A model generated the notes under the pieces. The model saw only the letters and a list, made by a program, of their open reading frames with translations, was not told the origin of the DNA and ran no database searches. Positions 40,400 to 51,112 of a stretch of DNA of 51,448 bases are shown one piece after another. Positions within the stretch are counted from its first letter, which is position 1; each line of letters starts with the position of its first letter. Both the position numbers and the translations under genes were made by a program. Source of the DNA: Spirochaetota bacterium (GTDB lineage Bacteria > Spirochaetota > UBA4802 > JAGODF01); assembly GCA_029573825.1 (NCBI GenBank), contig JAKQCH010000420.1, positions 1 to 51,448 of the forward strand. Direction: 5' to 3'.

Positions 40400-40536
40400 C
40401 ATTACCTCTATAAAAAATTCTCTTTTATTATTGACACATTCAGCATTTGCTATTTGTTGAAACAGTAATTGCTGTTTGCTGTAATGGGTGCTGAGGTCCG
40501 TGGCATTATAAATAATAATTATCAGGAGAATTCTTT

Positions 40537-41574
40537 ATGAAAACCCGTATCACTGAACTTTTTAAAATTAAATATCCCATTATCCTTTCAGGAATGAGCT
40601 GGATAAGCACACCGGAACTTGTTGCGGCAGTTTCCAATGCAGGGGGCATGGGGATACTTGCAACAGGGGTCCTCGGTGTAGAGGAGACCAGAGAGTATAT
40701 CAAACGGATAAAGGAACTGACAAAGAAGCCCTATGCGGCAAATGTGACACTGTATTTTCCCGGCGCCGAAAGGAATGCGGAAATCCTGATCGAGAACAAG
40801 GTCCCCGTGGTAAATTATGCCCTGGGGAAAGGGGACTGGATAGCAAAAGAAGTGCACAAGTATGGCGGCAAGGTGATCGCGACAGTTACCACGGCGAAAC
40901 ATGCCCTTGCGGCACAGCGGGACGGCGCTGACGCGCTGATTGTTACTGGCCATGAAGCCGCAGGACACGGCGGAGCGGTAACGTCAATGGTGTTGATACC
41001 AAGCATTGCTGATATCGTTGATATTCCTGTTATCGCGGCAGGGGGGTTTGCGGATGGTCGGGGGCTTGCTGCGGCGCTTTCCCTCGGTGCAGAGGGTATC
41101 GCAATGGGGACGCGTTTTATGAATTCCGTGGAAAGCCCTGTCCACGAAACGCAGAAGCGAATGAGCAGTGAGAGCGATGTGTATGATACGGTGTATACCG
41201 ACAAGGTGGACGGCCTGAAAGCGAGGGTTCTCAACACAAAGGGAGCGCGGCGGCTTATAAAAAAGAGGCTGAATCCTTTCAGCGCTGTTATCCGTTCAAA
41301 GGCGATTGCGGATATGCTCGGTTTTCCATGGCTGAAACTGGCAGTGGGTATTATGTTTTCCGGCTTTAAGCGGTCAATGCAGATGGCGCGGATGGCAATC
41401 GGATTCAAGGCGTTTCTGGTTGGCACCATGAACGGCGATAACAGGATGGGTGTACTCCCCATGGGACAGATTACCGGAATAATCCACGATACCCCTACCG
41501 TTGAGCAGATATTAAAGAATATTATTGCCGAGGCGAAGAAGGTTAAGAAAAAGCTTGATGTGACAATAAAATAA
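40537..41574 (+). CDS. Nitronate monooxygenase/FabK-family flavoenzyme 1
   Basis: This 345-residue FMN-dependent TIM-barrel protein starts MKTRITELFKIKYPIILSGM, then STPELVAAVSNAGGMG. The catalytic-His block is VTGHEAAGHGGAVTSMVLIP near residue 140-160. FMN-phosphate motifs PVIAAGGFADGRGLAAALSLGAEGIAMGT follow. The family contains nitronate monooxygenase and the enoyl-ACP reductase FabK, and sequence does not separate them here. AGGAG precedes the ATG. A TTGACA at about 40433 is a promoter candidate. A paralogue with nearly the same N terminus lies at 43414. Confidence 0.88.
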   Translation: MKTRITELFKIKYPIILSGMSWISTPELVAAVSNAGGMGILATGVLGVEETREYIKRIKELTKKPYAANVTLYFPGAERNAEILIENKVPVVNYALGKGDWIAKEVHKYGGKVIATVTTAKHALAAQRDGADALIVTGHEAAGHGGAVTSMVLIPSIADIVDIPVIAAGGFADGRGLAAALSLGAEGIAMGTRFMNSVESPVHETQKRMSSESDVYDTVYTDKVDGLKARVLNTKGARRLIKKRLNPFSAVIRSKAIADMLGFPWLKLAVGIMFSGFKRSMQMARMAIGFKAFLVGTMNGDNRMGVLPMGQITGIIHDTPTVEQILKNIIAEAKKVKKKLDVTIK

Positions 41575-41621
41575 TATCACCCGCATAACTGTGCTGCTGT
41601 TCTTTTGGTGTGAATTTGTAA

Positions 41622-41648
41622 AAACCCGGAAAAATTCCGGGTTTTTTT
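41622..41648 (+). terminator. Rho-independent terminator after paralogue 1
   Basis: AAACCCGGAA (41622-41631) pairs with TTCCGGGTTT (41635-41644) around an AAA loop, then T-rich. Paralogue 1 is therefore probably a separate transcript from paralogue 2. Confidence 0.88.
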
Positions 41649-41702
41649 ATGAACTTTGCCGGTGATTGTTATTGACAAATTTTTTTCAAATAAAATGATT
41701 GA

Positions 41703-41722
41703 ATATGCACTTATTTGCATAT
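41703..41722 (+). promoter_or_regulatory. Palindrome upstream of the flavoenzyme 2-padR operon
   Basis: ATATGCA (41703-41709) and TGCATAT (41716-41722) form a perfect 7+6+7 palindrome, about 60 bases before the start at 41785 and just after a TTGACA (41672-41677). It resembles PadR-type operators, and a padR gene lies in the same operon. Confidence 0.5.
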
Positions 41723-41784
41723 AGTTTTTAGAAGTGCTTTTTCAGCGTGATATACTTATATCCGGGTCACAGGGGAGGACGTAC

Positions 41785-42768
41785 ATGAAAACAGCAATTA
41801 CTGAAATGTTCGGTGTTGAATATCCTATTATCTGCGGCGCCATGATGTGGCTTTGTACGCCGAAGCTTTGTGCCGCCATATCGAACGCAGGGGGGCTTGG
41901 AAATCTCACCGCGGGAAATTATCCCACAGAAGAGGAATTCCGGAACGCGATCAATGAAACGCGGAGTATGACGGATAAACCTTTTATGGTTAATGTCACA
42001 ATTCTGCCGTCAGTGCATATCGGGCCGGAACAGCATAAAATGTATCTGCGGGTGTGTGCACAGGAAAAGATCGCGGGACTTGAAATTTCCGGCGCTCCCC
42101 TTGACAAGGCGGTGGGGATGGAGATTGTGGATCTCCTGAAGAAAGCGGGAGTAAAGCTGTTCCACAAGGTTGGTTCTGTCCGTCATGCCGAGCACGCGGT
42201 AAAGGCGGGATATGACGGAATTTACGCCGCGGGAATTGAGGAAGGCGGACATCCCCTGAATGATGATGTCACCACAATGGTGCTGACGCCGCGGATTAAA
42301 GATGTATGCCGGGTCCCGGTGGTAACCGTGGGTGGTATTGCTGACGGGCGTTCAATGGCGGCGGCAATGGTCCTGGGGGCCGACGGTGTTATGATGGCGA
42401 CACGGTTTGTGGCGACGCAGGAATGTGAAGTCCACGAAAATATCAAGCAGCACCTGATAAAAAGGCATGAAAACGATACCGCACTGATCTGCAAGAGCAT
42501 CGGGCTCCAGGGACGCGCAATCCGGAACAAGGTCGTAGAGGATGTCCTGGCTCTTGAAGCGAAGGGATGCGGCTTTGAGGAACTGCTGCCTCTTATTGCG
42601 GGGAAGAAAGTGAAGGAGGCATGGGAAACCGGAAATGTTGATCTCGCACCCATGATGATGGGGCAGTCTGTCGGGCTGGTGCATGATGTGCCTTCGTGCA
42701 GAGAGCTTATTGAACGGATGGTAAGGGAAGCGAAAGAAGAGATATCCCGCGTTTCAGGCCTTCTGTAA
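41785..42768 (+). CDS. Nitronate monooxygenase/FabK-family flavoenzyme 2
   Basis: This 327-residue paralogue is more divergent: MKTAITEMFGVEYPIICGAM, then CTPKLCAAISNAGGLG. The catalytic-His block is IEEGGHPLNDDVTTMVLTP and the FMN site is PVVTVGGIADGRSMAAAMVLGADGVMMAT. Several conserved positions differ from paralogues 1 and 3, so the substrate may differ. GGGAGG at 41774-41779 picks ATG 41785 over the in-frame ATG at 41734, which would cover extra non-family residues. It is 21 bases before the padR gene and likely co-transcribed. Confidence 0.86.
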   Translation: MKTAITEMFGVEYPIICGAMMWLCTPKLCAAISNAGGLGNLTAGNYPTEEEFRNAINETRSMTDKPFMVNVTILPSVHIGPEQHKMYLRVCAQEKIAGLEISGAPLDKAVGMEIVDLLKKAGVKLFHKVGSVRHAEHAVKAGYDGIYAAGIEEGGHPLNDDVTTMVLTPRIKDVCRVPVVTVGGIADGRSMAAAMVLGADGVMMATRFVATQECEVHENIKQHLIKRHENDTALICKSIGLQGRAIRNKVVEDVLALEAKGCGFEELLPLIAGKKVKEAWETGNVDLAPMMMGQSVGLVHDVPSCRELIERMVREAKEEISRVSGLL

Positions 42769-42789
42769 ATTCAGGAGTTACGATTTATT

Positions 42790-43338
42790 ATGGCAATAAC
42801 CCACGCAATCCTTGCATCACTTGTAGGAGACAAACCCTGCAGCGGGTACGACCTTGCGAAGCAGTTTAACAGCTCCCTCGGTTTTTTCTGGAAGGCCTCT
42901 CATCAGCAGATTTATCGTGAGCTGGCAAGAATGGAAAAAAAGGGGCTGGTGATGTCTGAAGTGGTGCAGCAGGAGGACAGGCCTCATAAAAAGATTTACA
43001 GGGTAACGGATGAAGGGACGCAGTATCTTGTGGAGTGGATCGCGTTGCCGACGGAGCCGTCACCGGTAAAGGAGGACCTCCTCGCAAAATTTCATGTGGG
43101 ATATCATGTTCCGATACATATTATCATTGACGAAATTTTAAGGCGCAGAAAAATTCATGAAGAAAAACTGAAATTATATTATGAACGGGAAAGGGAATAT
43201 TTTCCCGATGTTGCACAGATGTCAATGAAAGCAAAATTCCGCTACCTTAATCTGCGGCGGGGAATAACTCATGAAGCTTCGTGGATTTCATGGTTTGATG
43301 AGGCCCTGGCCCTCCTCGGGGGAGCGGCTGTCGAGTAA
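42790..43338 (+). CDS. PadR-family transcriptional regulator
   Basis: This 182-residue regulator has an N-terminal winged helix (ITHAILASLVGDKPCSGYDLAKQFNSSLGFFWKASHQQIYRELARMEKKGLV, cut in blocks of under 20 when read as motifs) and a C-terminal helical dimerisation domain of the Vir/PadR-C type. The SGYDLAK and YRELARMEKKGLV motifs and the EDRPHKKIYRVTDEG wing are diagnostic. AGGAG precedes the ATG. It probably controls the flanking flavoenzymes by binding the palindrome at 41703-41722. Confidence 0.92.
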   Translation: MAITHAILASLVGDKPCSGYDLAKQFNSSLGFFWKASHQQIYRELARMEKKGLVMSEVVQQEDRPHKKIYRVTDEGTQYLVEWIALPTEPSPVKEDLLAKFHVGYHVPIHIIIDEILRRRKIHEEKLKLYYEREREYFPDVAQMSMKAKFRYLNLRRGITHEASWISWFDEALALLGGAAVE

Positions 43339-43413
43339 GCTTCATTGAGGACTATATACAACGAAACGGATGAAATATGCCGTTTTAAAAAAATTATTTT
43401 TTAGGAGTTTTGT

Positions 43414-44553
43414 ATGAAAACAAAAATTACCGATCTTTTTAAAATTAAATATCCGATCATCCTTCCCGGCATGAGCTGGATCAGTGTTCCGGAACTGGTT
43501 GCGGCGGTGTCAAATGCAGGGGGGCTTGGATATCTTGCGACAGGACCTCTTACTCCGGAAATGACCCGTGAATCAATCAGGAGAATCCGTCAGCTAACCG
43601 ACAAACCATTCGGCGCAGGCTGTACCCTTCTGATGCCGGGGGCACGGGAAAACGCCGAGGTTCTCATTGAGGAAAAAGTCCCTGTTATTAATATCTCACT
43701 GGGACGGGGCGAAGATATTATCGAGCGTGTGCATCAATACGGTGGAAAAGTAATATCAACTGTTACCACGGAGAAACACGCCCTTGCGGCGGAAAAAGCA
43801 GGGGCGGATGCGCTCCAGGTGACAGGACACGAAGCTGCCGCCCATGGTGGACTTGCCACGACGATGGTCCTTGTTCCTGCGATTGTTGACGCGGTGAGCA
43901 TTCCTGTTGTTGCTATCGGCGGATTCGCTGACGGAAGGGGCCTTGCGGCAGCCCTTGCCCTGGGAGCGGAAGGTATAGGTATGGGTACCCGTCTCTCAAT
44001 GACAAAGGAAAGCCCGGTTCATCAGGACACAATTCAGAAACAGCTTGAGTCTGGAATTCTGGATACCCTTTATTCAAACCGGTTTGACGGGCTGAACTGC
44101 CGTGTACTCAAGACTCCTGCGGCGTCAAGGGCGATAAGACGCGGTATGAGCCTCCCGAGGGCAATCATTGCGGGTCCGCGAATTGCCCGTGAAATGAATC
44201 TTCCATTCTTTAAGCTGATGCTGGGCATGATAGCCCAGGGACCAAAGACCATGATGACCCTTGCTCACATGGCAACAGCATTCGATAAAATTCAGGCGGC
44301 AACCGAGGGTGATCTGAAGAATGGCGTGCAGCTGATCGGTCAGTGCCAGGGTATTATTCATGATGTGCCTTCGGTTGAAGAAGTGATAAAACGCACGGTG
44401 GATGAAGCGCTGAAAATTCAGAAGGCAATGGGCGTTAAGCTTGAGGGAAAAACCGGGGGAACATCAAAGCCCGCAGCAGCGAAGAAAGCCGCACCAAAAG
44501 CGAAGGCTGCCCCCAAAGCAAAAGCCAAAAAAGCGGTTTCTAAAAAGAAATAA
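43414..44553 (+). CDS. Nitronate monooxygenase/FabK-family flavoenzyme 3 with H1-like tail
   Basis: This 379-residue paralogue is very close to paralogue 1 at the N terminus (MKTKITDLFKIKYPIILPGM) and has VTGHEAAAHGGLATTMVLVP and PVVAIGGFADGRGLAAALAL. After the normal end near residue 345 comes a tail rich in Lys, Ala and Pro (SKPAAAKKAAPKAKAAPKAK, then AKKAVSKKK), absent in paralogues 1 and 2. A similar tail ends the hydrolase at 22422. AGGAG precedes the ATG. A strong terminator follows. Confidence 0.88.
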   Translation: MKTKITDLFKIKYPIILPGMSWISVPELVAAVSNAGGLGYLATGPLTPEMTRESIRRIRQLTDKPFGAGCTLLMPGARENAEVLIEEKVPVINISLGRGEDIIERVHQYGGKVISTVTTEKHALAAEKAGADALQVTGHEAAAHGGLATTMVLVPAIVDAVSIPVVAIGGFADGRGLAAALALGAEGIGMGTRLSMTKESPVHQDTIQKQLESGILDTLYSNRFDGLNCRVLKTPAASRAIRRGMSLPRAIIAGPRIAREMNLPFFKLMLGMIAQGPKTMMTLAHMATAFDKIQAATEGDLKNGVQLIGQCQGIIHDVPSVEEVIKRTVDEALKIQKAMGVKLEGKTGGTSKPAAAKKAAPKAKAAPKAKAKKAVSKKK

Positions 44554-44582
44554 ACATTATTAAGCCGCACAGCAATCAAAGG

Positions 44583-44620
44583 GGGCTGACCTTTCAATGA
44601 CGGGTCAGCCCTCTTTTTTT
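44583..44620 (+). terminator. Rho-independent terminator after paralogue 3
   Basis: GGGCTGAC (44583-44590) pairs with GTCAGCCC (44604-44611), followed by TCTTTTTTT. It sits between convergent genes, with the T-run on the plus side. Confidence 0.88.
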
Positions 44621-44630
44621 ATCATGCAGA

Positions 44631-45389
44631 TTATTTACCCTGCTGAAAGAGTGTCATACCCAGCATTACCTGATTGCGGTCCTCCATGTTCAGTGCCGCC
44701 TCCAGGCCCCCGGCATCAATATTGATGTTTATCGCTTCTTTTGTAAGGCGGAGTCCAAAGTGATTTTTTGACATGAGAATGGCGGCGTATTCCTTTGCGG
44801 TGTCCAGAAGCTTTTCCCGGTCAACCATCTTGCTTACGAGACCGAGGTTTACAGCCTCTTCGGAGGACATAAATTGCCCGGTGTACATGAATTCATACGC
44901 CCTTCCTGATCCGATCATGCGCGGAAGAAAATAGCTGCATGACATGTCGGCGCCGCCAAGGCCGATATTGATGTAGGCGGCGCAGAAACGGGCATCAGGT
45001 GAGATTACCCGTATGTCGGAAGCGAGAACGAAGCTGAATCCCTGGCCAGCTGCGGCGCCATGGACCGCGGTGATAATAGGCTGCGGCGCCCGGCGCATCG
45101 CAAGATTGATCCTGGCAAGGCGGGCCTGGAAGCGATAAAATTCCTGGGTGTTCATTTTAGGGGCCATTTCCATGGTCTCTTTCATGTCAAGACCGGCGCA
45201 GAAACCTTTGTCGCCATTTCCCTTCAGTATGATGACCTTTGTATCGAGATCATAAAGCCGTTCTCTCCAGAACTCGTCCAGTTCCTCCATCATCTTGTGG
45301 CTTACGGCGTTGTATACGTCAGGCCGGTTAAGGGAGAGAAGCCCGACGCCCTTTTCAATTACTTCATATTCGATTGTAGTATAGCTCAT
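44631..45389 (-). CDS. Enoyl-CoA hydratase/isomerase family protein (crotonase fold)
   Basis: This 252-residue protein has the crotonase oxyanion-hole sequence KGFCAGLDM and the helix HGAAAGQGFSFVLASDIRV. At the positions of the two usual catalytic Glu (in ELA and PEV motifs) it has FSFVLA and AYINIGLGG, so neither Glu is present. It is therefore probably an isomerase, hydrolase or other crotonase-family enzyme and not a classical hydratase. The later SYFLPRMIG loop and GQFMSSEEAVNLGLVSKMV are family-typical. It has its own promoter and diverges from the TetR gene. Confidence 0.82.
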   Translation of the reverse strand: MSYTTIEYEVIEKGVGLLSLNRPDVYNAVSHKMMEELDEFWRERLYDLDTKVIILKGNGDKGFCAGLDMKETMEMAPKMNTQEFYRFQARLARINLAMRRAPQPIITAVHGAAAGQGFSFVLASDIRVISPDARFCAAYINIGLGGADMSCSYFLPRMIGSGRAYEFMYTGQFMSSEEAVNLGLVSKMVDREKLLDTAKEYAAILMSKNHFGLRLTKEAININIDAGGLEAALNMEDRNQVMLGMTLFQQGK

Positions 45390-45423
45390 AGTGCACCTTC
45401 TTTATAATGATAGGATTACTCAC

Positions 45424-45451
45424 AGTATCTGCCGGTTTTGCCGGGTGTCAA
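45424..45451 (-). promoter_or_regulatory. Promoter of the crotonase gene
   Basis: On the minus strand TTGACA (45451-45446), 16 bases, then GATACT (45429-45424) form a plausible sigma-70 promoter about 35 bases before the ATG. The spacer carries a CCGG-AAAA-type inverted repeat (CCGGC/AACCGG-like). Confidence 0.5.
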
Positions 45452-45539
45452 CAGGAATTAATTGTTTTTGCCGACGGCGATGTGCGTTTTCCTGCGGGTC
45501 ACATAAAGTACAGCAACAGGCAAAAATGATATTTTATGG

Positions 45540-45580
45540 TTGACAAAAATAAAGAATGAAACATAACAGTGTTATGTTTC
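45540..45580 (+). promoter_or_regulatory. TetR operator over the tetR-fadH promoter
   Basis: GAAACATAAC (45558-45567), spacer AGT, and GTTATGTTTC (45571-45580) form a perfect 23-bp palindrome. TTGACA at 45540-45545 with CATAAC at 45562-45567 (16-base spacer) gives a promoter whose -10 lies inside the palindrome. A repressor bound there would block transcription. The palindrome lies between the TetR gene and the divergent crotonase gene. Confidence 0.75.
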
Positions 45581-45622
45581 GGGCTTCAGGCGGGGCACCG
45601 GGAAAAACAGGGGGAGAAGGAC

Positions 45623-46219
45623 TTGGAGAGAAAAAACAGCCGTACGCATATTCTGAATGTCGCACGGAAACTGTTTTTAAAGCAGGGTTATAATGGCGTG
45701 TCCCTGCGGGAGATCGCTGCGGCAGCAGACCTTACGACAGGAGCGGTGTATCATCATTTTAAAAATAAAAAAGAAATATATAATGCAATATGTTTTGAGG
45801 CGGGGGACATGCTCGTTTCACTGTTCCATGAAAGTGAGATACACCAAGACACCCCCAGCAAAAAGCTCATATCGATATACGATTCCTTTATAAGTTTTTT
45901 TTACCGGCACCGGGACTATTACAATATACTCATGGAATACAAGGCAGAGTACAGCGGCGGGAAGGGTGACAACGAAGATATAATCAAAAAAATGGCGGAA
46001 GTTGCCGGTGTCGTGGAGCCTCCGATTCTGCAGGGTATCGATGAAGGTATCTTCAGGACTATCGATCCGAAACTGCTCGCGATGTTTCTGGCCGCGGTTT
46101 CGGAGGGGATGCTGCAGTATAAGAAAATCGGACTGTTCGATTATATGGGGATATCAGACAGCGATTTTCGAAGCTTTATGTATGAACTGGTGGGGAGAGG
46201 AATTCGCAGCGATTCGTGA
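45623..46219 (+). CDS. TetR-family transcriptional regulator
   Basis: This 198-residue repressor has an N-terminal TetR HTH: THILNVARKLFLKQGYNGVS, then LREIAAAADLTTGAVYHHFKNKKEIY, followed by an all-helical ligand domain. The TTG at 45623 is preferred because GGAG at about 45613-45616 lies six bases before it. An in-frame GTG at 45569 would lie inside the operator palindrome. The HTH and the operator suggest autoregulation. The FadH-like gene starts 25 bases after its stop, forming an operon. Confidence 0.9.
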   Translation: MERKNSRTHILNVARKLFLKQGYNGVSLREIAAAADLTTGAVYHHFKNKKEIYNAICFEAGDMLVSLFHESEIHQDTPSKKLISIYDSFISFFYRHRDYYNILMEYKAEYSGGKGDNEDIIKKMAEVAGVVEPPILQGIDEGIFRTIDPKLLAMFLAAVSEGMLQYKKIGLFDYMGISDSDFRSFMYELVGRGIRSDS

Positions 46220-46244
46220 CGAATATAATTTTGAGGAGGCCGCA

Positions 46245-48266
46245 ATGTATACGAAACTGTTCAGCCCGATTTTCATTAATACCGTTGAAGTGAGAAACCG
46301 GATCGCGTATCCTTCGATGGGGCTTTTATACTCAAATGACGGCGCTTTCAATGACAGATATTACGAGTACTTCAGGGAAAAAGCGCGGGGAGGCGCGGGA
46401 ATTGTTACTGTCGGACCTGTCGGTATTGATAAGGTGGGGGGGATGGGAGTTACGCTTTCTTTAAAGGGGGATGATACCATACCTGCATTCGCGAAATGCG
46501 CCGAAATTATAAAACAGGAGGGGGCCAGGGCATGGGTACAGCTCTTTCATGCGGGGGGATATGCGGCGTCATGGCTGATTGACGGTGAGACACCGATGGC
46601 TCCGTCATCAGTGTACAATAGCTATTCCAAGGAAACCCCGCGTGAAATGACCTCAGACGATATAGGGCAGACAATTGAAAACTTTATTCGTGGAGCTGAG
46701 CGCGTGAAGGAGGCCGGGTTTGACGGTGTGGAAATAATAGCCTCAGCGGGGTATCTTATTACACAGTTTCTTTCGCCGATCAGGAATATCCGGACTGATG
46801 AATACGGCGGCAGCTTTGAAAACAGGACACGCTTCCCCCGTGAGATTATTGAAGGGATGCGGAAACGTCTGGGGCCTGACTTCCCCGTGACCATACGCAT
46901 GGCGGGAAATGACTTTATTCCCGGCAGCAATACCGGTGTGGAAGCCCAGGACATCGCGCGGGTTTATGAAAAGGCAGGCGTTGATCTCATCAACGTCACC
47001 GGAGGATGGCATGAAGCCCGTGTGCCTCAGCTTCCCATGCGGGTGCCGATATCCGCGTATTCATATCTGGCGCTTAATGTTAAGCGGGCGGTGTCGGTGC
47101 CGGTAATGGCGTCAAACCGGATTGCCGATCCCGGCACAGCGGAGCAGATCATCAGGGACGGTGTCGCGGACATGGTGAACCTGGGGCGGGTTCTCCTCGC
47201 TGACCCCCAATGGCCCCTGAAGGCGAAAGAGGGCCGGGCACGTGAGATCAGGCCCTGTGTTGCCTGCAACCAGGGATGTACTGATACAATTTTCAGCGGT
47301 CAGCCGGTTTTCTGCATCGTCAACCCCCGGGCAGGGTATGAAGGAGTCCGCGTCATTGAGAAAACGGCTTCGCCGAAAAACATTATGGTAGTGGGTGCCG
47401 GTCCCGGGGGCCTTGAGGCCGCAGTGCGGGCCGCTGAAGCCGGGCATAATGTTTCCATCTATGAAAAGGGGCCGGATATCGGCGGGCAGCTCTGGATAGC
47501 GGGAGTGCCTCCCCACAAGAAGGACATCCATGAGATACTGCGGTATTACCGGTCGATGATAAACCGCCCGAATATCAACTGCCTTCTTAACACCACAGTG
47601 TCAATTGACATGATTAAGGATCTGCATCCGGACTATGTGATTCTCGCGGAGGGAGCCGCGGCGGCGATGCCTCATGTCGACGGGATTGATGACGAACATG
47701 TCGTGTCTGCATGGGATGTTCTGAAAAATGATCCTCCCCTGGGAAGGAAGATTGCGGTTATTGGCGGCGGGGCCGTGGGGCTTGAGACAGCGCATTTTCT
47801 CGCTGCAAAGGGGACGATATCTCCCGAAACCCTTCACTTCCTGTTTGTCTATAACGGAGAGAGTATTGAACGGCTGAAGGAGCTCACTACGAAAGGAGTG
47901 AAAGATGTCACGGTGTTTGAAATGCTTCCAAAGACTGGTGCCGACGTGGGGAAATCGACCCGGTGGGTCCTTACGGGCGACATTGAGCGGCTGGGAGTGA
48001 AAGTAATAATCGGAGCGAAGGTCTTGTCTGTTGGGAAATGTACCGTGGCGTACGAGAAGGGGGGTATCAGGGGGGAAGAAAAATTTGATGATGTGGTAAT
48101 CGCGGTGGGTTCAGTTTCAGAGCGGACCCTGGCGGATCAGATCGCAGCAACGGGAATTCCCTTCTATGTAGTGGGCGATGGGAAGCGTCCCGCCAGATTG
48201 AATGATGCGATACATGAGGCGTTTCTGGCGGTTCTGGATATCCAGAACAATATCAAAGAAAGGTGA
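46245..48266 (+). CDS. NADH:flavin oxidoreductase/2,4-dienoyl-CoA reductase (FadH-type)
   Basis: This 673-residue enzyme has an N-terminal Old Yellow Enzyme TIM barrel (LFSPIFINTVEVRNRIAYPS, QLFHAGGYA and DGVEIIASAGYLITQFLSP). An Fe-S motif follows: PCVACNQGCTDTIFSGQPVFC, with C-x2-C-x3-C then C about 11 on. The C-terminal NAD(P)/FAD domains have VVGAGPGGLEAAVRAAEAGH and VIGGGAVGLETAHFLA. Family members reduce 2,4-dienoyl-CoA, enones or bile-acid-like enoyl substrates; the exact substrate is unknown. GAGGAGG precedes ATG 46245; an earlier start at 46002 would lie inside tetR. Its 3' end overlaps the kinase gene by 14 bases in convergent orientation. Confidence 0.9.
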   Translation: MYTKLFSPIFINTVEVRNRIAYPSMGLLYSNDGAFNDRYYEYFREKARGGAGIVTVGPVGIDKVGGMGVTLSLKGDDTIPAFAKCAEIIKQEGARAWVQLFHAGGYAASWLIDGETPMAPSSVYNSYSKETPREMTSDDIGQTIENFIRGAERVKEAGFDGVEIIASAGYLITQFLSPIRNIRTDEYGGSFENRTRFPREIIEGMRKRLGPDFPVTIRMAGNDFIPGSNTGVEAQDIARVYEKAGVDLINVTGGWHEARVPQLPMRVPISAYSYLALNVKRAVSVPVMASNRIADPGTAEQIIRDGVADMVNLGRVLLADPQWPLKAKEGRAREIRPCVACNQGCTDTIFSGQPVFCIVNPRAGYEGVRVIEKTASPKNIMVVGAGPGGLEAAVRAAEAGHNVSIYEKGPDIGGQLWIAGVPPHKKDIHEILRYYRSMINRPNINCLLNTTVSIDMIKDLHPDYVILAEGAAAAMPHVDGIDDEHVVSAWDVLKNDPPLGRKIAVIGGGAVGLETAHFLAAKGTISPETLHFLFVYNGESIERLKELTTKGVKDVTVFEMLPKTGADVGKSTRWVLTGDIERLGVKVIIGAKVLSVGKCTVAYEKGGIRGEEKFDDVVIAVGSVSERTLADQIAATGIPFYVVGDGKRPARLNDAIHEAFLAVLDIQNNIKER

Positions 48267-49635
48267 TAGTAAACTCTGTGCTGTTGTGTGCGGTGAGTTC
48301 CAGATGTCCCCGGAGGTCCATGACGAGGAGGCGGACAAGCTGGAGCCCCATTGTCATGGGTTTGCTGATGTTGACGGTATCCGGCATGCCGCACCCATTG
48401 TCCCCGATGATAAGGGAGTAGTGGCCGTCATTCTGCGCTCTGAAAAATTTGATAAATATCATGTTGCCGGCATTGCTGCTGAAGGCGTGTTTGAACGAAT
48501 TCGTTACCAGTTCATTAATTATCAGGCCGCATGAACGTGATTGTTTCATGTCAAGAAATGCCTCCTCAACGGTCATGTCCAGCTGTACCGTAAGGCCCTT
48601 CTCCCGGTATGCAGAGAAGAGGTTGTCGAGGATGCATTGTATATAGTCCCTGAAATATATCCGCCCTGACTCTTTTGAGCTGTAGAGCATCTGGTGGACC
48701 ATCGATATTGACTGTATGCGGTTGCTGCATTCCTTGAAAAGGTCCTGGATGTTTTTATCCTTAATGTTCCGTGACTGCAGAAAGAGCAGGTTTGAAATGA
48801 TCTGAAGATCATTTTTTACATGATGTGTGGTTTCACGGAACAGCGTCTCTTTCTCGCGGAGCGCTGACGCTATTTCTTTTTCCCTGTTTTTTTTTTCAGT
48901 TATATCCCTGATGAAGCATGCGGTCATGTTGTACGGCGAGTCCGTCAGCTGGAAAAGGCACAGATTGAGGGAGACAGATGCCCCGCTCTTCCCGATTCCC
49001 TGTATTTCCCGTTCAGCGGGTACTTTCTCTGTTGTGTCGTACGCAGAGAAATAATCAAGGACCTGCTGTACTGCAAGTTTTGATGAGAGTTCCATGAAGA
49101 ACGTGCATGGCTTTCTGAAGGCGTCGTATTCGTCAAAACCAAGAAGATATTTCATCTCCTTATTCCAGAAGATAATATTGGCATCAGCATCAATGAGAAT
49201 AATGCCGTAGGGAATTGAATCTGCCACGAGACGAAACCGTTCAATGATACTGTCAGGTTTTTCCGGGAGGAATTTTCTTTCAATCGCAATTTCAATGGCA
49301 GCTTTAATTTCGTCGATGTGGAACGGTTTCAGAATATAACCGGCGGGGTTGAGCTTCTTCGCGCGTTCGATGTATTTGTCATCACCATAGGCAGTGATGA
49401 AAATTACCGGGATTTCCAGTTCGTTGATAATTATTTCCGAAGCGGCAATTCCATCGAATTCTCCCGGCATCACAATGTCCATGAGGATCACATCGGGAAG
49501 GACATGTTTTGCCATCAGGACGCTTTCCTCACCCGATGACGCACGGCCCACAACATTGTAACCCATCAGCGTGAGACGCTCTTCGAGTTGTGTTGATATA
49601 AGGGCCTCATCATCGACAACCATAATGTTTTTCAT
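48253..49635 (-). CDS. Receiver-PAS-HisKA_2 histidine kinase
   Basis: This 460-residue soluble protein has a response-regulator receiver domain first (MKNIMVVDDEALISTQLEER, phospho-Asp in VILMDIVMPG, then ITAYGDD and YILKPFH). A PAS domain spans about residues 130-255. The C-terminal HisKA_2 domain (RETTHHVKNDLQIISNLL, phospho-His) and HATPase (NELVTNSFKHAF, GDNGCGMPD) follow. A receiver at the N terminus of a HisKA_2 kinase is a common layout for two-component input relays. It lies downstream of a membrane HisKA_2 kinase on the same strand (145-base gap). No separate output regulator is adjacent. Confidence 0.92.
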   Translation of the reverse strand: MKNIMVVDDEALISTQLEERLTLMGYNVVGRASSGEESVLMAKHVLPDVILMDIVMPGEFDGIAASEIIINELEIPVIFITAYGDDKYIERAKKLNPAGYILKPFHIDEIKAAIEIAIERKFLPEKPDSIIERFRLVADSIPYGIILIDADANIIFWNKEMKYLLGFDEYDAFRKPCTFFMELSSKLAVQQVLDYFSAYDTTEKVPAEREIQGIGKSGASVSLNLCLFQLTDSPYNMTACFIRDITEKKNREKEIASALREKETLFRETTHHVKNDLQIISNLLFLQSRNIKDKNIQDLFKECSNRIQSISMVHQMLYSSKESGRIYFRDYIQCILDNLFSAYREKGLTVQLDMTVEEAFLDMKQSRSCGLIINELVTNSFKHAFSSNAGNMIFIKFFRAQNDGHYSLIIGDNGCGMPDTVNISKPMTMGLQLVRLLVMDLRGHLELTAHNSTEFTITFL

Positions 49636-49780
49636 CTATTTCTCCCGGATTTTTTTATAGGGATGCGTGTTGTGAGTAGAGTTAATATAATTGAATACAA
49701 TACGGTATAAATATATCAATAAATTTTTTACAAATGATTCGTAAAAAAACTGCAGATTGATCTCAACCCGGCAAAATCTG

Positions 49781-51112
49781 CTACACAGGGAAGTCGCTGT
49801 GCGGACAGCTGAATTGTATGACTATTTCCGTGCCGTTAATATTTTGTATGGAGAATGATCCCTTGAGCTGGTCATGGACAATTGTCCGCATAAGCTTTAA
49901 ACCGATGCTCGAGGTTGTGTCTGAGTCGATTTTTTTCGGGAATCCTATTCCGTTATCACGGACGGAAAGGATAATTTTTCCCTCTGGATTTAATGATGAA
50001 CATATCCATATAACGCACATTCTATCTTTCCCGATGCCGGTGAATGCATGGCGTGTCGCATTTGAAAGGGCCTCATTGATGACAAGGCAGACCGGAATCG
50101 CGGTATTGATAGGAATAAATATATCGGGGCAGTCAATATGAATACAAATATTTTCCGTGTTGTAAAGCCGGCCAAGGTGCTGAATTATTTCACGAAAGCA
50201 TTCGCCGATATTGATTGAATCAAAACGCTCATGTTTATAGAGATGTGTGTGGAGCAGGGACATGGTATAAATTTTTGATTCGAGGTCTTTCAGAAAATTA
50301 AGTGCGTCATTGTCTCTGACACGCATGGAAACCATGTCAAGGAGACTTGATATGATCTGCAGGTTGTTTTTTACCCGGTGATGTATTTCATAGAGCATGA
50401 CTTCCTTTTCTTTCAGGGCGATATGAATTTTCTGTTCGCTCAGAAATCGTTCTGTTATGTCCCGCATTATCATGAGGATATAGTTCTCATCCTTCAGGGA
50501 ATAGGCGTGGAAGCTTATTTCAACAGGAATCGCGACTCCGTTTTTCATGCGTGCCTGCATCTGGAAGATATTCAGATTTTGTGAAAGCAGTACCTCCTTG
50601 ATCTCACTGATGCTGGAAAAACTTGATCTGATGATGATGTCGTCAATTGAGAGCGACCGGATTTCATTCGCGCTGTAACCGAGAAGATCACATGCGGCGT
50701 TGTTGGCATCGATAAATGTGCCTCCAAGGGCCTCGTCTTTGACCATAAAAAGGAGAAATGACTCATTGGAGTTCGCGAATATGGAATGATATTTTTCCAG
50801 ACCTTCCTTCAGGCGTTTCTGCTCGTCGCCGATGGAGCGGGAGTGCCCTGCGATGATAAAAACAAGGGCAGAGAAAAGCACGGAACAGAAGGAAATAAAC
50901 ACGATGAATATTGTTTGTGTTGAGGATGCAGTGATTTCGGAAAATATCCCGAAGTGGAATGCTGTATTAAAAAGGATCAGGGAGATGGACCCTGCTGCGA
51001 GCAGGATCCCCGCTGAACGATATGACCGGTAACGGATGATGGGGATAGAAAATATCCCCCCTGCCGCAGTAAAAAGAACAACAGCGATATACAGGATGTC
51101 CGGCATCATCAT
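49781..51112 (-). CDS. Membrane PAS-HisKA_2 sensor histidine kinase
   Basis: This 443-residue protein has an N-terminal region with about three transmembrane helices (residues 5-85), then a short coiled linker and a PAS domain (YHSIFANSNESFLLFMV onward). HisKA_2 has LYEIHHRVKNNLQIISSLLD with the phospho-His, and HATPase contains NEALSNATRHAF and DNGIGFPKK. The membrane part suggests it senses an extracellular or membrane signal. The downstream receiver-kinase gene may accept its phosphoryl group. Confidence 0.92.
   Translation of the reverse strand: MMMPDILYIAVVLFTAAGGIFSIPIIRYRSYRSAGILLAAGSISLILFNTAFHFGIFSEITASSTQTIFIVFISFCSVLFSALVFIIAGHSRSIGDEQKRLKEGLEKYHSIFANSNESFLLFMVKDEALGGTFIDANNAACDLLGYSANEIRSLSIDDIIIRSSFSSISEIKEVLLSQNLNIFQMQARMKNGVAIPVEISFHAYSLKDENYILMIMRDITERFLSEQKIHIALKEKEVMLYEIHHRVKNNLQIISSLLDMVSMRVRDNDALNFLKDLESKIYTMSLLHTHLYKHERFDSINIGECFREIIQHLGRLYNTENICIHIDCPDIFIPINTAIPVCLVINEALSNATRHAFTGIGKDRMCVIWICSSLNPEGKIILSVRDNGIGFPKKIDSDTTSSIGLKLMRTIVHDQLKGSFSIQNINGTEIVIQFSCPHSDFPV

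Follow-up and report, generated by a model that had tools for sequence, protein, structure and literature searches.

Several described enzymes and regulators resemble parts of the locus studied here. They include the crotonase-fold protein PaaG, the Escherichia coli 2,4-dienoyl-CoA reductase FadH (structure 1ps9), the enoyl-acyl carrier protein (ACP) reductase FabK, and IpdC, a flavin enzyme of steroid C/D-ring degradation that is 30% identical to FabK, acts on a CoA thioester as a flavin mononucleotide (FMN)-dependent acyl-CoA oxidoreductase and works next to a crotonase (PMC5380842). Among regulators, TetR-family proteins of the PsrA, FadP and FadR type govern regulons of fatty acid degradation (PMC5343134), and AphA, a PadR-family protein of Vibrio cholerae, has the chromatin immunoprecipitation sequencing (ChIP-seq) consensus ATGCAA-N4-TTGCAT (PMC6855506). 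Here we analysed a 51,448-nucleotide stretch of DNA from a Spirochaetota bacterium of the UBA4802 lineage (contig JAKQCH010000420.1, C54 in this study; hereafter the window), in which seven genes at 40537-48266 encode three flavoenzymes (NPD1, NPD2 and NPD3), a PadR-type regulator, a crotonase (ECH), a TetR-type regulator and a FadH-type reductase. The contig belongs to a metagenome-assembled genome (MAG) of 69% completeness. Populations of UBA4802 express or carry syntrophic butyrate oxidation, and the families UBA5368 and UBA5550 are reported to degrade long-chain fatty acids (PMC7382037, PMC13248872). Named relatives by sequence include MAGs of uncultured Spirochaetes/Spirochaetia, and G027, a genome of the same order, matches the contig of MAG UBA5368, after which a GTDB family in class UBA4802 is named; this too makes UBA4802 the probable assignment.

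All seven genes were clearly assigned by Pfam (nitronate monooxygenase (NMO) PF03060 three times, PadR with Vir_act_alpha_C, ECH_1, TetR_N, and Oxidored_FMN with Pyr_redox_2), and both the assignments and the coordinates agree with the sequence-only reading, which had placed three FMN enzymes, PadR, a crotonase, TetR and FadH together. What is new here is that a palindrome beside the TetR gene (45558-45580) defines a regulon. On balance, we favour the view that the genes form a conserved catabolic module of the order, which would prepare awkward (unsaturated, possibly cyclic) acyl-CoAs for beta-oxidation. Open-access literature searches for nitronate monooxygenase with beta-oxidation or syntrophy, or for dienoyl-CoA reductase with TetR, returned no description of the module.

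A predicted TetR operator that recurs in 25 related genomes

The TetR gene (45623-46219, plus strand) and ECH (44631-45389, minus strand) are divergent, and between them lies a perfect 23-bp palindrome, GAAACATAACAgTGTTATGTTTC (45558-45580), which is unique in the window and for which 0 occurrences were expected from shuffled sequences. A -35-like TTGACA of the TetR promoter can be read at 45540-45545 on the plus strand, and the expected -10 element is overlapped by the predicted operator. The start of TetR is most likely the TTG at 45623, because the GTG at 45569 falls inside the palindrome and the alignment with orthologues begins at about the TTG. The operator core, AACATAACA-N-TGTTATGTT, was searched with at most one mismatch in 59 related genomes (own included), with the reversed pattern as a control. 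It occurred at 49 sites in 25 of the 59 genomes, against 1 site for the control pattern. An orthologue of TetR was found as one copy per genome in the same 25 genomes, which span five families (25/25 versus 0/34; Fisher 3e-17, without phylogeny correction).

Nearly all readable sites precede FadH, NPD2, the gene of an enoyl-CoA isomerase-type crotonase (ECI), ECH, a CrtI-like/PaaE-like pair, TetR itself, a 360-aa 4Fe-4S protein or an acyl-CoA ligase, with a distance to the target of >200 bp in a few cases; a single site lies by a gene for a 1408-aa BcrAD/DUF2229 protein. That the operator recurs beside the same kinds of genes in 25 genomes argues for a real co-regulated set, and a conserved palindrome 5' of the regulator's own gene and of its targets, co-occurring with the regulator, is the sequence pattern of an autoregulated TetR regulon. 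The predicted regulon is well supported. Matches with two mismatches, for example on contig C162 of the same MAG, may be noise, since the control pattern gives matches at this level too. Another palindrome, 5' of NPD1 (40460-40477), was dropped as a candidate, being absent at orthologous positions. Like the PsrA, FadP and FadR regulons, compared here by regulator family and gene set, this one would place a TetR protein over fatty-acid/acyl-CoA genes, but its gene set differs, taking in the NPDs and the Fe-S protein, and it is confined to this order as far as searched.

Solved structures closest in fold to the TetR model (pLDDT 84) include PfmR, AibR, a putative fatty-acid regulator of C. perfringens, KstR2, FadR, FasR and MbdR, which is suggestive only of an effector of the fatty-acid/acyl-CoA class. 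In a detoxification reading, the NPDs would act as nitronate monooxygenases or as reductases of quinones or xenobiotic enones, with PadR and TetR exerting stress control. Both types of regulator are often found in charge of detoxification, the NPDs match the NMO family and FadH falls within the old-yellow-enzyme superfamily. We judge this improbable, as the operator and the linkage are shared with acyl-CoA ligase, ECI, crotonase and FadH, and an O2-dependent nitronate oxidase would be ill-suited to an anaerobic lineage. The nitroalkane substrates offered as an option by the sequence-only reading are likewise disfavoured by the partner genes (acyl-CoA ligase, acyl-CoA dehydrogenase and enoyl-CoA isomerase).

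Two neighbours of the operator deserve mention. The 360-aa protein, which has a 4Fe-4S dicluster at its C-terminus and an unnamed N-terminal part reading MADE.YY.LRDVLD.MPNG.P, lies repeatedly 3' of the operator (L235, L236, L237, L238, L239, L240 and L244) and has no NCBIfam name. The pair of a CrtI-like FAD protein and a PaaE-like FAD/NAD/2Fe-2S reductase is located between the operator and NPD2 or NPD3 (L149-L151, L153, L185 and L251).

Flavoenzymes, crotonase and FadH-type reductase

NPD1 (40537-41574), NPD2 (41785-42768) and NPD3 (43414-44553), all on the plus strand, match PF03060 with E values of 5e-65, 3.5e-53 and 2.7e-61, and keep the active-site His of the NMO/FabK superfamily (GHEAAGH in NPD1). 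NPD1 and NPD3 are paralogues with 57% identity, NPD2 is 33-35% identical to either, and orthologues of NPD1 at 65-79% identity occur in many families of the order. For NPD2, which is 83% identical to its counterpart in genome G029, a start at 41785 rather than 41734 is most likely, as judged by homology. In the tree, the NPD1 and NPD3 clade was sister to, not within, the IpdC-like proteins of Tsukamurella and Nocardia (99% SH-like approximate likelihood ratio test, SH-aLRT), in a quick search with long branches, while NPD2 formed a clade of its own (99%) and Streptococcus pneumoniae FabK grouped elsewhere.

FabK is both the best-matching NCBIfam model and the best solved relative of the NPDs and has the superfamily and the active-site His in common with them, so that they might be taken for enoyl-ACP reductases of fatty acid synthesis; the sequence-only reading had called them FabK/nitronate-type. 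By the curated cut-off they are not FabK, since they score 241-248 bits against the equivalog cut-off of 453 (TIGR03151). Together with the separate position of S. pneumoniae FabK, the lack of recognised fab genes nearby and the placement of several diverged NPD copies among catabolic genes, this makes a role in fatty acid synthesis very improbable.

At the two sites (rat Glu144/Glu164) that are occupied by Glu in the hydratase-type homologue PaaF of E. coli, the crotonase ECH has Ser and Asn. The replacement is common to close orthologues, and the two-Glu signature of enoyl-CoA hydratases is absent, as noticed earlier from the sequence. In contrast, Asp148 (GGADM), which follows an IGL motif, aligns with the Asp of PaaG (IPD) and is invariant in 18 orthologues; PaaG has the same fold and likewise lacks both hydratase Glu. 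By analogy, the active site appears to be of the isomerase type. ECH also appears similar to delta3,5-delta2,4-dienoyl-CoA isomerase and 4-chlorobenzoyl-CoA dehalogenase, but its identity to these proteins and to PaaG is about 35-40% or less and its reaction is predicted. EchA20 was rejected as an identity for ECH on its residues. With a pLDDT of 67, the AlphaFold model of ECH was too poor to be used. The separate ECI-like crotonase of the relatives keeps one Glu; a homologue (54%) is located on contig C39 of the same MAG, in which acyl-CoA dehydrogenase gave 12 matches. Close orthologues of ECH were not found in three genomes of the window's own family (93, 89 and 76% complete).

The FadH-type gene (46236-48266, plus strand, with a start near 46236) encodes FMN and FAD domains in the same order as in E. 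coli FadH, the Cys motif of a 4Fe-4S cluster, the Tyr and His expected of a 2,4-dienoyl-CoA reductase, and the GWHEAR motif. E. coli Tyr167/His253 in coding numbering, which we take to be the Tyr166/His252 pair of the literature, and the four Fe-S Cys were kept in 25 of 25 aligned rows. Unlike its E. coli counterpart, the gene is linked to the NPDs and TetR.

The relatives of these enzymes also allow a ring-catabolic reading, in which IpdC-like NPD1 and NPD3 would oxidise or reduce cyclic beta-keto acyl-CoA, and CoA thioesters of alicyclic, steroid-like or hydroaromatic type would be the substrates of ECH and FadH. In Tsukamurella, the gene for an NMO-family protein with 40% identity to NPD1 lies next to CoA-transferase (ipdAB-like) genes, FadH matches naphthoyl-CoA reductase (6qkg, E 5e-99), and the nearest TetR folds include KstR2 and MbdR; the likeness to IpdC and naphthoyl-CoA reductase is what keeps some weight on ring substrates. 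However, NPD1 and NPD3 are about 40% identical to IpdC, and the position of NPD1 and NPD3 next to IpdC rests on long branches. No ipdAB/ipdF-like partner was recognised among the annotated conserved neighbours, the whole genome not having been searched for ring-cleavage genes; the actual partners are ECI and acyl-CoA ligase/dehydrogenase. Moreover, the crotonase is of another type, without the Glu that an EchA20-like protein keeps. We consider ring catabolism unlikely, although it is the alternative with the greatest weight.

Further features of the NPDs were seen in the window and its relatives. The C-terminus of NPD3 (44449-44550) is a Lys/Ala-rich, histone-H1-like tail (KTGGTSKPAAAKKAAPKAKAAPKAKAKKAVSKKK); among the compared NPDs, a similar but shorter tail was present in the UBA5368 orthologue (L055) only. 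On contig C151 of the same MAG (L158), at 2.6-5.7 kb, a second NPD2 paralogue (66%) lies between a long acyl-CoA dehydrogenase and another TetR, and this trio recurs in G036, G039, G040 and G041. The NPD3 orthologue of L137 (G022) is in two pieces, likely through a frameshift or assembly error. A TldD/PmbA pair is located directly 5' of NPD1 in two families (L117-L119, L127, L131, L132 and L134). Outside the spirochaetes, two Syntrophaceae loci (L047 and L048) have an NPD2 orthologue (71-72%) in tandem with an NPD1/NPD3-like gene.

Proposed role in acyl-CoA breakdown

In the catabolic module that we favour, ECH would shift a double bond with its single Asp and ECI would likewise move double bonds. 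The FadH-type enzyme would reduce conjugated 2,4-dienoyl-CoA with NAD(P)H via FAD, the 4Fe-4S cluster and FMN, and NPD1-3, as FabK/IpdC-type FMN oxidoreductases, may reduce or oxidise acyl-CoA, their substrates and reaction direction being the most conjectural part. The products would pass into beta-oxidation. TetR is predicted to bind the palindrome that overlaps its own promoter, and in relatives also the copies of this palindrome 5' of other module genes; it would act as a repressor, probably released by acyl-CoA, with PadR presumably answering to another signal. The theme of the sequence-only reading, reduction or isomerisation of enoyl-CoA-type substrates outside a core beta-oxidation operon, seems to us right.

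Several points weigh against this interpretation. FadH shares only 35% identity with its E. coli namesake; its best NCBIfam model matches are BaiCD and bilirubin reductase, which with the mycofactocin old-yellow-enzyme model score about equally, all below their curated cut-offs, and the substrate may therefore not be dienoyl-CoA. NPD1 and NPD3 group with IpdC, whose substrate is a ring compound. No TetR site with at most one mismatch was found directly 5' of NPD1, and the window's own MAG contains a single such site. Since TetR folds are alike in general, the fold match is weak evidence for the effector class.

More specifically, the clades of NPD1-3 could be FMN-dependent acyl-CoA oxidoreductases that have so far gone unrecognised, with relatives in Thermoanaerobaculales, Desulfobacterales and Syntrophaceae. 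They would act beside FadH and crotonase isomerases in anaerobic breakdown of unsaturated acyl-CoA and belong to a TetR regulon specific to the lineage, PadR and TetR standing in for each other; we advance this fuller proposal tentatively. The regulon comprises a single motif, a single regulator and few targets, and would be testable in uncultured spirochaetes thought to oxidise butyrate or long-chain fatty acids syntrophically. Annotations of "nitronate monooxygenase" in anaerobes also gain a better-founded context in acyl-CoA chemistry, with IpdC as the nearest characterised relative of two of the clades.

Linkage of the module genes in related genomes

The same 59 genomes were searched with NPD1, NPD2, ECH and FadH, gene maps were drawn around the matches (coding score and tblastn), and neighbour pairs were counted by hand from coordinates. 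NPD3 and ECH were convergent neighbours in 10 genomes, NPD2 and NPD3 adjoined in 9 genomes, and FadH adjoined NPD1 or NPD3 in about 17 genomes, the pairs being spread over several families. Six genomes of one genus have the order ECI-TetR-(NPD2-NPD3)-FadH or part of it, and G029 has NPD2-PadR-NPD3-ECH-FadH. Partner genes in the relatives encode ECI-type crotonases, acyl-CoA dehydrogenases and AMP-ligases. The genes are linked in many relatives, and they have an operator in common even when scattered, so that the refuting condition set by the sequence-only reading, a lack of linkage in every relative, does not hold. The earlier description of the locus as an accessory island is only partly borne out. 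Homologues of the module occur, re-shuffled, in most families of the order. G001, from the same family as the window, has ECI-NPD1-FadH after the flank HDGYP-YraN-AI2E, a smaller module in the same slot; what sets the window apart is that a PadR-type block is joined to TetR-FadH.

PadR as an apparent alternative regulator

The PadR gene (42790-43338, plus strand) encodes an AphA-type protein (PF03551 and PF10400). Upstream of NPD2, a sigma-70-like promoter, TTGACA-16-AATGAT (41672-41699, plus strand; a consensus match only), is followed directly 3' of its -10 element by a predicted PadR operator, ATATGCA-N6-TGCATAT (41703-41722), which is exact in the window and stands 5' of the NPD2-PadR operon, the pattern not being significant in the window at two mismatches. 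A TATGCA-N6-TGCATA-like site (at most one mismatch) was found 5' of PadR or the NPD2-PadR operon in 8 of 8 genomes with this PadR, and the palindrome gains support from this conservation at the operon start. It matches the AphA consensus at 11 of 12 positions, which, with the domain content, is consistent with an AphA-type PadR; the window protein differs in that it seems to act locally, on an operon of enzyme genes. Both palindromes that had been noticed near the two regulators are thus plausible conserved operators.

Of the 8 genomes with a close PadR orthologue, 7 have no TetR (within the order, Fisher 0.016 without phylogeny correction), and the window genome is the only one with both. In some relatives, then, the AphA-like PadR may take the place of TetR, and this apparent swap, with the enzymes staying the same, would offer a clear natural example of one regulator replacing another. 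The closest relatives of the window's NPD2, NPD3 and PadR are those of G029 and UBA5368, which suggests that the PadR block probably moved within the order. The FadH and TetR trees gave no clear source, neither protein grouping with the window's own family. These relationships suggest repeated exchange within the order, with the donor family of the block not fixed.

Downstream, the module is flanked by two minus-strand genes reading as sensor histidine kinases (48253-51112), the first of which has a receiver-like N-terminus and overlaps the FadH stop codon with its 3' end.

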